Assembly (NCBI GenBank): GCA_031261805.1
Contig: JAISIX010000044.1
Span: 1 to 38,250 of the forward strand
DNA from: Mediterranea sp. (in: CFB group bacteria)
GTDB taxonomy: Bacteria; Bacteroidota; Bacteroidia; Bacteroidales; Bacteroidaceae
DNA: 38,250 nt
Direction of reading: 5' to 3'
Shown: piece after piece, positions 12,114 through 37,010 of the stretch
Layout: each line of letters opens with the position of its first letter
How positions within the stretch are numbered: the stretch's first letter is position 1
Translations under genes and position numbers: made by a program
Notes under the pieces: generated by a model
What the model was told of the DNA's origin: nothing
The model's database searches: none
What the model saw: only the letters and a program-made list of their open reading frames with translations

Positions 12114-12145
12114 CACCCGCAAACAGCTTTGGCGCGTTTTTACAT

Positions 12146-12216
12146 TGGGCTATGGTGTAATGGTAACACTACAGATTCTGGTCCTGTCATTCCTGGTTCG
12201 AATCCAGGTAGCCCAA
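12146..12216 (+). tRNA. tRNA-Gln (anticodon CTG)
   Basis: A 71-nt cloverleaf: acceptor TGGGCTA (12146-12152) pairs with TAGCCCA (12209-12215); D stem GTGT/ACAC; anticodon stem 12171-12175 / 12183-12187; T arm CCTGG-TTCGAAT-CCAGG. The anticodon loop is TTCTGGT, with CTG at 12178-12180, reading CAG (Gln). CCA follows the discriminator A at 12217-12219. The first acceptor pair is U-A, as in glutamine tRNAs of other bacteria. The innermost anticodon-stem pair is A-C (12175/12183), a mismatch. It has its own terminator 25 bp downstream. Confidence 0.93.
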
Positions 12217-12240
12217 CCAGATCAAGCCTGTTTGCAGGAT

Positions 12241-32659: not shown

Positions 32660-32732
32660 CGTTTTTATCTTGGAAATAGTCTTTTTCTTCGCATTCGCTT
32701 GCGTAAGATTAAGAATTCTGTGGTGGATTTCG

Positions 32733-32740
32733 TACATTTG
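32733..32740 (+). promoter_or_regulatory. Candidate -7 element for surE-lpxB
   Basis: TACATTTG matches TAnnTTTG, 28 bp before the ATG at 32769. No TTTG at the proper upstream distance. Confidence 0.5.
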
Positions 32741-32768
32741 CACACTTATTAAAGTTAAGATAAAGCAG

Positions 32769-34697
32769 ATGGAAGAAAATAAAAGGCCCCTGATACTCGT
32801 CTCCAACGACGATGGGCTGATGGCCAAAGGCATTAATGAACTTGTGAAATTCTTGCGCCCACTGGGCGAAATCGTAGTAATGGCTCCCGACTCACCCCGT
32901 TCCGGCAGTGGCTGCGCCCTTACGGCGACACGACCCGTGCACTACCAGCTGGTACGCCAAGAGGTCGGGCTGACAGTGTACAAATGCTCGGGCACCCCCA
33001 CCGACTGCATCAAGCTGGCGCGCCACACCGTGCTCGACCGCGTGCCCGACCTCGTGGTGGGCGGCATCAACCACGGCGACAACTCCGCCACCAACGTACA
33101 CTACTCGGGTACCATGGGCGTGGTCATCGAAGGTTGTCTCAACGGCATACCTTCCATTGGCTTCTCTCTCTGCGACCACGCGCCCGATGCCGATTTCTCG
33201 CCCACTGAACTCTACATACGCGCCATCAGCACCATGGTGCTCGACAAGGGACTCCCTCCCCTCACCTGCCTCAACGTCAACTTCCCCGCCACCCCCAACA
33301 TCAAAGGTGTGCAAGTGTGCCAGCAGGCCAAAGGGCACTGGGTGAACGAGTGGGCACCCTGCCCCCGGCAGAACGACCCCAACTACTTCTGGCTCACCGG
33401 CGAGTTTACCGACCACGAGTCCGACAATGAGAAGGACGACCACTGGGCACTGAACCACGACTGCGTAGCCATCACCCCCGTCACCGTCGACGTGACGGCC
33501 TACAACTTTATCGATACCCTGAACGAGTATTGCCGCCAAGCGGGCCTGAAACCCATGTCGTACTCCCGCCTCGGAGGCGAAGCCTCCGGCGACCTGCTCG
33601 CCGCCGGACTGTGGCGTGCCCTCAAGCTGGGAGACCCCCGCGCGGAGTTCCGCTTCTTCGGCGGCGACCTGATGTCCGCCGTGGGTGGCACCCGCGTAAA
33701 GCATTACCGCGAGTTGGCCTACATGGGCTTTATCCCCGTACTGTTGCACCTGCGCACCATCTTCGCCAACATGAAACGTTGCAAGGCCGACATCGTGGCT
33801 TGGCAGCCCGACGTGCTGATACTGGTCGACTATCCCGGCTTCAACCTCAGCATTGCCAAGTTCGTCCGTGCCCACACACGCATCCCCGTCTACTATTACA
33901 TCTCGCCCAAGGTATGGGCCTGGAAAGAGTACCGGGTGGAGAGCATCAAGCGCGATGTTGCCCACCTCTTCTCCATCCTCCCCTTCGAGGTGGAGTTCTT
34001 CGAGCAGAAGCACCACTACCCCATCCACTACGTAGGCAACCCCACAGTAGACGAGGTCGACGCCTACCAGCGAACCCATCCACAGGACTTGGACGCCTTC
34101 CTCACCGACAACCACCTCACGGATCACCGCCCGGTGATAGCCCTACTGGCCGGTAGCCGTAAGCAAGAGATTAAAGACAACCTGCCCGACATGATTCGTG
34201 CCGCCTCCGCCTATTCCGGGCATCAGTTGATAGTGGCAGGTGCCCCCTCCATTCCCCCCGAATACTACAGGCAGTACATCGGCTCCGCCCCCGTGCAAAT
34301 CCTCTTCGGCCAGACCTACCGCCTGTTGCAACATGCCGACGCGGCATTGGTCACCTCAGGCACCGCCACTCTCGAGGCCGCCCTCTTCCGAGTGCCACAA
34401 GTGGTATGCTACCACACCCCCATCGGCAAGGTCATCTCCTTCCTGCGCCGACACATCCTCAAGGTGAAGTACATCTCATTGGTCAACCTCATTGCCGACC
34501 GTGAAGTGGTACGCGAGCTGGTAGCCGACACCATGACGGTAGCGAACATGCGCACAGAGCTTTCCCGCCTTCTGAACGATCAGACCTACCGCGACCAGAT
34601 GCTCGCCGGCTACGAAGAGGTAGCCCGCCGCCTGGGACCGGCCGGAGCACCCCAACATGCGGCGAAGATAATGCGGGAGCTGCTGACGGAGAGATAA
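32769..34697 (+). CDS. SurE-LpxB fusion: 5'/3'-nucleotidase plus lipid-A-disaccharide synthase
   Basis: One uninterrupted frame of 642 residues from ATG 32769. Residues 1 to about 258 are SurE, a metal-dependent nucleoside monophosphatase: VSNDDG (11-16, metal-binding Asp pair), SPRSGSG (42-48) and GGINHGDN (about 97-104). Residues 263-642 are LpxB (GT19), which joins UDP-diacylglucosamine and lipid X into the lipid A disaccharide. Landmarks are GEASGD (270-275), [53 protein letters not shown] and [11 protein letters not shown]. The join is only AGLKP. An ATG at 33555 (Met263) sits where LpxB normally starts, so separate LpxB could also be made. The 40-codon upstream extension is rejected because SurE begins at MEENKRP. 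From memory these are separate adjacent genes in other Bacteroides. Confidence 0.85.
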
Positions 34698-34842: not shown

Positions 34843-34850
34843 GCAGCCGC

Positions 34851-34965
34851 GGTGGCTGCGAGGGAACCACTGCGGTAGCTCCAAGGGAACCACCACGGTG
34901 GCTGCGAGGGAACCACTGCGGTGGCTACAAGGGAGCTACCGCGGTGGTAGTGAGGGAGCTACGCC
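34851..34965. repeat. Five tandem 23-bp repeats
   Basis: Units begin at 34851, 34874, 34897, 34920 and 34943, an exact 23-bp period. Each starts GGTGG or GGTAG and contains AGGGA followed by ACCAC or GCTAC. Units 1 and 3 are identical; the others differ by a few bases. Each unit is itself an imperfect palindrome, clearest in unit 4 (GGTGGCT ... AGCTACC). The period is not a multiple of three, and no gene runs through it. Confidence 0.9.
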
Positions 34966-34982: not shown

Positions 34983-35048
34983 GAGCGGATGGGCATGCGC
35001 GTACGAGCGGATGCCCATCCGCCCACGAGCCGATGGGCATCCGCCCAA
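34983..35048. repeat. Three tandem 22-bp units related to hairpin 2 of block A
   Basis: Units begin at 34983, 35005 and 35027, each starting GAGCGG or GAGCCG. They carry GATGGGCAT or its reverse complement ATGCCCATC, so neighbouring units can pair. Block A has the same unit at 12368 and 12390, also 22 bp apart. Confidence 0.88.
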
Positions 35049-35282: not shown

Positions 35283-35314
35283 TTTGCGTCTTCTGTTTTC
35301 AATACCTATTTTTG
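35283..35314 (+). promoter_or_regulatory. Promoter of the second ECF sigma gene
   Basis: TTTG (35283-35286), exactly 20 bp, then TATTTTTG (35307-35314): a full match to the Bacteroidota consensus, 51 bp before the ATG at 35366. The sigma gene thus appears to be read by the housekeeping holoenzyme. Confidence 0.8.
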
Positions 35315-35365: not shown

Positions 35366-35950
35366 ATGCAGTCGGAAAGAGAAGACATAGAGCAGCTGCG
35401 CGAAGGCTCGTCAGCGGCCTTTGAGCGCCTGTTCGACCAATACAGCGGGAAGCTCTACAACTTCATGCTGCGATTGGCCGCCGGAAATACGTATCTCGCC
35501 GAGGAGATGACACAACGCGCGTTCGTCAAGGTATGGGAGACACGCACGGCCGTCAACCCCGAAAGGTCGTTCCTCTCCTACCTCTGCACCATCGCCAAAA
35601 ACATGCTGATAAACGAATATGAACACCAGACCGTCGAACGGCTCTACCAAGAGCACGTGTTAGCACATACCCCCATGGCCGAGGTCACTACCGAGCAGCA
35701 AGTCTGCTACCGTCTCTTAGACGAATACATCACCCATCTCACCGAGCAACTACCACCCGCACGCAGACAAGTGTTCGTACTCTCCAAACGCGAGATGCTC
35801 TCCAACCGCGAGATAGCCCAACAACTCCACATCACCGAAAGTACGGTGCAGACGCAGCTATCGAAAGCCCTGGCCTTCATGAAGGAACAGTTGGCCAAGC
35901 ACTATCCACAGCTCCTCTGCCTGCTCCTCTACTACACTTTCCCACCATAG
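35366..35950 (+). CDS. ECF-type RNA polymerase sigma factor (second copy)
   Basis: The 194-residue ECF sigma has region 2 visible in FERLFDQYSGKLYNFMLRLA (about 19-38) and LAEEMTQRAFVKVWETR (about 44-60). Region 4 has LPPARRQVFVLSKREMLSNR and the helix-turn-helix ending HITESTVQTQLSKALAFMKE. It is clearly divergent from the sigma at 18737. A FecR-type anti-sigma gene follows after 69 bp, the standard pair. It has a consensus promoter. Its regulon is unknown; no SusC/SusD genes are next to it in the window. Confidence 0.93.
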   Translation: MQSEREDIEQLREGSSAAFERLFDQYSGKLYNFMLRLAAGNTYLAEEMTQRAFVKVWETRTAVNPERSFLSYLCTIAKNMLINEYEHQTVERLYQEHVLAHTPMAEVTTEQQVCYRLLDEYITHLTEQLPPARRQVFVLSKREMLSNREIAQQLHITESTVQTQLSKALAFMKEQLAKHYPQLLCLLLYYTFPP

Positions 35951-36978: not shown

Positions 36979-37010
36979 TTTGGATGCTAATGGCAAACTG
37001 CCTACATTTG
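36979..37010 (+). promoter_or_regulatory. Promoter of the AAA-ATPase-like gene
   Basis: TTTG (36979-36982), 20 bp, then TACATTTG (37003-37010): exact consensus, 29 bp before the ATG at 37040. Confidence 0.8.

Follow-up and report, generated by a model that had tools for sequence, protein, structure and literature searches.

A putative SurE–LpxB fusion in a single Bacteroides assembly, with an altered N-terminus in its LpxB half

When two normally separate enzymes appear as one continuous reading frame in a single assembly, does the frame record a genuine fusion, and by which route and with what consequence might it have arisen? The window, by which we mean the whole stretch of 38,250 nucleotides analysed, raises this question for the 5'/3'-nucleotidase SurE and the lipid A disaccharide synthase LpxB. 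As the initial annotation had proposed, an uninterrupted open reading frame on the forward strand runs from an ATG at 32769 to a stop codon ending at 34697 and encodes 642 amino acids, with an estimated mass of about 72 kDa and no internal stop, and both of its parts exceed the cut-offs of their family profiles. The features of the locus are as follows.

32749..32788, forward strand: surE start region, with a normal Bacteroides start context (GC 0.30, minimum free energy 0.0)
32769..33548, forward strand: SurE (5'/3'-nucleotidase) part, residues 1–260, over cut-off for PF01975 and NF001492
33549..33554, forward strand: junction codons K261-P262 (AAA CCC), the junction DNA being compared with that of 35 other loci
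33555..34697, forward strand: LpxB (lipid A disaccharide synthase) part, residues 263–642 with the stop codon, over cut-off for PF02684 and TIGR00215
33555..33626, forward strand: rewritten LpxB N-terminus, residues 263–286, with changed genus-invariant positions and a lost start context
33555–33557, forward strand: relict lpxB start codon (Met263), within the rewritten N-terminus

Pfam places SurE at residues 9–192 and LpxB at residues 270–608 of the fused protein. The SurE half scores 186.1 bits against PF01975 (curated cut-off 22.1) and 321.3 bits against the NCBIfam equivalog NF001492 (cut-off 271), and the LpxB half 237.6 bits against PF02684 (curated cut-off 22.6) and 215.4 bits against the equivalog TIGR00215 (cut-off 190.25). 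No second SurE or LpxB match was found in the source genome assembly, which comprises 3,435,339 bases in 268 contigs, is 83.51% complete and contains the window as contig 95.

Both halves look under selection, since the SurE half agrees at every one of the 58 columns that are at least 95% conserved across 105 other SurE rows, and the LpxB half at 111 of 113 strongly conserved columns. The SurE family is described as carrying an N-terminal Asp-Asp motif and a metal-coordinating Asn (PMC8475336); N13-D14-D15 and N101 are invariant in our alignment, and the conserved setting of N101 suggests that it is the reported metal ligand. Residues S17, D98, R201, E281 and N316 of Escherichia coli LpxB, reported for activity or UDP binding (PMC5785501), correspond in a hand-counted alignment to S273, D354, R464, E536 and N573, all of which are kept. 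On these residues, both enzymes look functional. The expectation that both domains would be complete holds for SurE, whereas the first 24 residues of LpxB are abnormal.

In an AlphaFold2 monomer model (mean pLDDT 87.0, pTM 0.59), which does not fix the placement of one domain relative to the other, the part aligning with SurE structures begins near residue 7 and ends between 240 and 265, and residues 260–565 align with E. coli LpxB structures. Around the junction, mean pLDDT was 74 and 68 for residues 241–260, as against 60 and 54 in a relative that served as control and was translated past its stop, and 74 and 79 for residues 261–280, as against 90 and 90 in the control. The first LpxB strand is drawn in both window and control models.

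How the two genes came to share a frame is best judged against the nearest relative, the sister genome G005. There SurE ends CREAGL at the equivalent of L260, directly followed by TAA, and lpxB begins 11 nt later in a different frame with MKYYLIAGEASGD. The junction therefore lies at the usual SurE end, as had been predicted, and the linker is indeed very short; it is shorter than the five or so residues first estimated, since nothing but K261-P262 stands between the residue at which SurE usually ends and M263, the LpxB methionine. Loss of one stop codon, originally offered as the whole explanation, would be enough where the genes share a frame, as surE and lpxB do in many other relatives. Because the two are in different frames in G005, it is insufficient from a G005-like ancestor, from which the join would require that the stop region be shortened by a net 8 bases or, alternatively, that a different ancestral spacer be combined with loss of the stop.

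Maximum-likelihood trees of 48 genus rows group the window with G005 for both SurE (support 100/99) and LpxB (99/94). As both domain trees give the same sister, a chimeric join is unlikely, and both a chimeric assembly and the transfer of a single half were rejected. We likewise rejected a second copy as donor of the junction DNA, which occurs once in the source assembly. Over the 20,000 bases of the G005 contig that were compared, only window positions 32727–34678 match, so the flanking genes differ. The flanking neighbours of surE-lpxB on G005 contig 54 (L116), identified by eye from translations, are genes for a subtilisin-like protease and a TonB-type receptor, and the parA-parB pair of the window is absent from the 20,000 bases compared.

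If the join is genuine, lpxB might be expected to have lost its own start signal. Bacteroidetes generally lack Shine-Dalgarno sequences and have start regions of low GC and little structure, and in Prevotella a structure of -5.2 kcal/mol in the start region cut reporter expression fivefold (PMC3155529, PMC6847099). The 40 bases around Met263 have a GC of 0.675 and a folding energy of -8.1 kcal/mol. None of the 17 gene starts taken in the window (mean GC 0.33, mean fold -1.84) is as structured and none as GC-rich, the closest in folding being a doubtful TTG start at -7.8. The structure of the Met263 context is equalled or exceeded by 57 of 166 internal in-frame ATGs and its GC by seven; of 112 other distinct lpxB start contexts, not one attains its values. 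With G005 as the separate-gene control (lpxB start with fold -0.3 and GC 0.525, in a gene of GC 0.64), the computation thus indicates that the downstream gene's own start signal has been lost.

Lacking the AT-rich, unstructured setting of a Bacteroides start, Met263 is a poor candidate for initiation, and LpxB is probably produced solely as part of the fused protein. The alternative, that the frame is fused in the DNA and free LpxB is also or mainly made from Met263, giving a partial fusion, appears improbable to us: an ATG is kept at the old start with an A at -6, but its surroundings are more structured and GC-rich than all 17 gene starts of the window, the doubtful TTG start coming close. 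The absence of an A at -3 also speaks against it, weakly, since the G005 lpxB start has no A at -3 either.

The altered context coincides with an altered protein. Using 49 other distinct genus rows to define genus-invariant positions, we found 5 of 16 changed within LpxB residues 2–24 (K2S, Y4S, L5R, H15L and M20W) versus 0 of 124 in the remainder (Fisher p = 1e-5, with a boundary picked after inspection of the data), and no other genus row has more than one such change in residues 2–24. Against 12 closer relatives the contrast is weaker, with 12 of 215 invariant positions differing, six in the first 20 residues and six elsewhere. The N-terminus reads MSYSRLGG, whose S2, S4, R5, L6 and G7 are each confined to the window among 134 ATG-started loci. 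Y4S and L5R fall in the first strand of LpxB; the N-terminal strand as it stands in other Bacteroidales LpxB is not found here, a trait of the lineage rather than one that defines the family. GEASGD, whose serine matches E. coli S17, is intact amid the changed residues.

Release from the constraints of a start site would explain K2S and the rise in GC, and accounts less readily for H15L and M20W. Were there instead a local fault in the sequence, the metagenome-assembled genome would be in error over about 70 bases spanning the stop of surE and the start of lpxB, and the living cell would have two ordinary genes; such a fault would explain all changes at once, supplying a single cause for the loss of both the stop and the start context and for five residues unseen in other loci. 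The base changes also fit it: the six changed codons in the first 20 carry 10 base differences, all 10 transversions, an odd pattern, noticed after the fact, as against 237 transversions and 174 transitions (237/411, 58% transversions) summed over ten other genes; the six changed codons elsewhere in LpxB show three of each. A fault of this kind would, however, need a frame-keeping cluster of substitutions in mid-contig, one that left GEASGDL intact and created no stop. The end of the contig is 4.7 kb away from the junction, whose neighbouring frames (spoT, mltD, parB and parA) are uninterrupted, and the shared phylogeny of the halves argues against a chimeric join. Assembly faults are, moreover, more commonly breaks or indels than clusters of substitutions. 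On balance we regard a fault as unlikely, and a fusion real in the genome, taking all other readings together, as probable.

Two specific origins of the rewritten stretch were also considered. A special hairpin origin was not supported: the stretch folds no better than shuffles (z -0.59), and its folding is matched or bettered by 42 of 312 stretches from this gene and by 72% of randomised synonymous versions. A template-switch origin, compared by eye only, was not supported either.

How widely the join occurs bears on the same choice. Across 24 order-level genomes, surE and lpxB are adjacent in 17, apart or on different contigs in five, and without a match in two; at eight class-level loci they are neighbours 255 to 441 bases apart. 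With the pair adjacent in most order-level genomes, the raw material for a fusion is common. The fusion itself is seen in one lineage only, in a single assembly. Junction DNA was read at 140 loci, some of them places fetched repeatedly, and the frame is fused at one, the window alone; at the 139 unfused loci the gap between the genes ranges from -4 to 435 nt. Twenty further loci from wider panels contained no fusion. Relatives read at the junction have separate genes, which bears out the description of the join as one between normally separate proteins. The initial annotation had also named, as jointly telling against the fusion, separate genes in all relatives and failure to find a fused peptide; the first of these is what every relative read at the junction displays, but no sign of a sequencing fault was seen. 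The single assembly and the lack of a fused relative among the matches listed speak for such a fault.

In the genus panel, 157 of 158 genomes gave a match (G131 gave none). Thirty-five other genomes had full-length matches, each with at least one stop, and in the remainder matches were split, partial or, for G010, G097, G102, G125, G151, G154 and G157, outside those listed. No other stop-free full-length match occurred among the matches listed in overlapping panels of 61, 158, 399, 393 and 395 genomes, the lists for the 158 and the 399 genomes covering the stronger matches; under strict E-value cut-offs 186 of 399, 13 of 393 and 54 of 395 genomes matched and the others gave no row, so that a close fusion would rank at the top and a distant one could escape. 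Frames in G076, G132 and G371 reach up to 508 amino acids, too short for the fusion. Several relatives with an apparent open frame above 650 amino acids were rejected as further cases, a stop being present in each one whose DNA was read. The 80 loci kept from 591 favour same-frame pairs, and no frequency is derived from them. Within the parts of the literature covered by our search, no report of a SurE–LpxB fusion was found.

Two relatives show irregularities of their own at this locus. At L076 (4001–4813) and L128, both Bacteroides reticulotermitis, surE is apparently broken by a frame change, the SurE frame ending about 344 bases before lpxB, which may be a draft error. At L037 (around 4886) and L125, both Bacteroides faecichinchillae, the beginning of lpxB stands in a different frame from the remainder, the LpxB match at L037 beginning at residue 34; this is either a disrupted lpxB or an indel in the draft.

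What the join might do is constrained by the chemistry of the two enzymes. LpxH removes UMP from UDP-diacylglucosamine, and an LpxH-like hydrolase is encoded elsewhere in the source genome at a score below the cut-off (88.4 versus 190.35 bits), with the control Bacteroides ihuae also matching. LpxI likewise removes UMP from this substrate, in the step that precedes LpxB, and UDP is the product of LpxB itself (PMC5785501). Substrates listed for E. coli SurE are nucleoside monophosphates, 3'-AMP and polyphosphate (PMC8475336). The earlier suggestion that SurE pulls the LpxB reaction by way of UDP is accordingly left unsupported, and a direct pull is unlikely. In a variant of the idea, SurE would remove the UMP of the preceding lipid A step beside LpxB and so link nucleotide salvage to lipid A synthesis. 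The participation of E. coli SurE (UmpG) in UMP homeostasis (PMC8475336) agrees with this, as does the adjacency of the pair in 17 of 24 order-level genomes and at the eight class-level loci. Against it, LpxB yields UDP and not UMP, the genes were not found side by side in five of the 24 order-level genomes, and the fusion occurs in one genome only, with no sign of channelling; we consider such an adaptation very improbable. The simplest account is that the covalent join replaces translational coupling, which the short spacers lead us to assume, and brings little if any new function; neutrality of the fusion is the default reading.

The explanation that we prefer, with a probability of roughly two in three, is that a change at the end of surE after the split from G005 made one 642-residue polypeptide carrying both enzymes. 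On the branch to this Bacteroides species, a small change would have removed the surE stop and brought lpxB, the gene immediately downstream, into the reading frame of surE. The fused polypeptide would then be the only source of both enzymes, because Met263 lies in GC-rich, foldable RNA of a kind rarely used by Bacteroidetes ribosomes. The first lpxB codons, freed from start-site constraint, may subsequently have drifted. Each half would still dimerise and work, and the covalent join would replace the translational coupling of the ancestral pair and hold the enzymes at a 1:1 ratio, without any need for new chemistry between their active sites. Several points weigh against this explanation: only one assembly carries the fusion, and no second genome with it appeared in the panels listed; a separate lpxB may be present in the sixth of the genome that the assembly lacks; the changed residues sit exactly at the junction, where the first LpxB strand is modelled with less confidence than in the control, and their all-transversion pattern is odd for ordinary drift; and H15L and M20W lie beyond the start region, where start-site release would not account for them.

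Only tentatively do we go further and describe the locus as a fixed, natural bifunctional nucleotidase–lipid A disaccharide synthase, a private fusion that released the lpxB start and let the first strand be rewritten while the catalytic motif was kept. If true, it would constitute a recent natural experiment on the roles of the LpxB N-terminus in translation and in folding. The near-invariant Bacteroidales lpxB start (mostly ATG-AAR-TAY-TAY) is disrupted solely where initiation seems unneeded, which makes it testable whether its conservation serves translation initiation or LpxB folding. Since LpxB is essential in E. coli (PMC5785501), an LpxB that works despite its rewritten first strand would be informative about the structure of the enzyme too. 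Fusion of neighbouring genes is a known route to bifunctional proteins, and a recent case beside a close unfused relative is useful in that cause and effect can be told apart. Should the stretch be an assembly fault, it would be an example of a single metagenome-assembled genome suggesting a bifunctional enzyme.

Among known systems, the separate surE-lpxB pair of Bacteroidales (for example in G005 and Bacteroides heparinolyticus) is closest, with the same proteins, order and strand and, in many cases, almost no gap. It differs in having a stop between the genes and an lpxB start of its own, mostly AT-rich; at ATG-started loci the separate LpxB begins M[KRN]Y[YF][LIF][IV][VA]G, unlike the window. 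Long LpxB proteins of NCBIfam NF002173 (610 positions) resemble the fusion in having an N-terminal extension before LpxB, judging from profile length and match position; however, the match covers the LpxB part only (profile positions 232–552), at 126.9 versus a cut-off of 1033, and to our knowledge this family carries no SurE. E. coli LpxB (PDB 5w8n, 5w8s, 5w8x), unlike the fusion, is a free protein with no SurE in front; it is a C-terminally swapped dimer (PMC5785501), whereas the fusion was modelled as a monomer. SurE nucleotidases (PDB 3ty2, 2wqk, 1ilv and others) are also free proteins, whereas in the fusion the SurE end runs straight into LpxB; the SurE C-terminal domain is reported to serve mainly in the oligomer (PMC8475336).

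Other features of the window were recorded. Two GC-rich tandem arrays lie just downstream of the fused gene, at 34847–34947 (23- or 46-base unit) and 34983–35047 (22-base unit). A tRNA-Gln (CTG) is present at 12146–12219, of which the 76 bases at 12142–12217 are identical in the relative L118. The two-box pattern TTTG-N18-22-TAnnTTTG, which we take to be the Bacteroides promoter consensus, has six strict matches in the window (0.32 expected), for example at 35283–35314 and 36979–37010. None of the six lies upstream of surE, and one is 52 bases before the sigma-factor gene at 35366.
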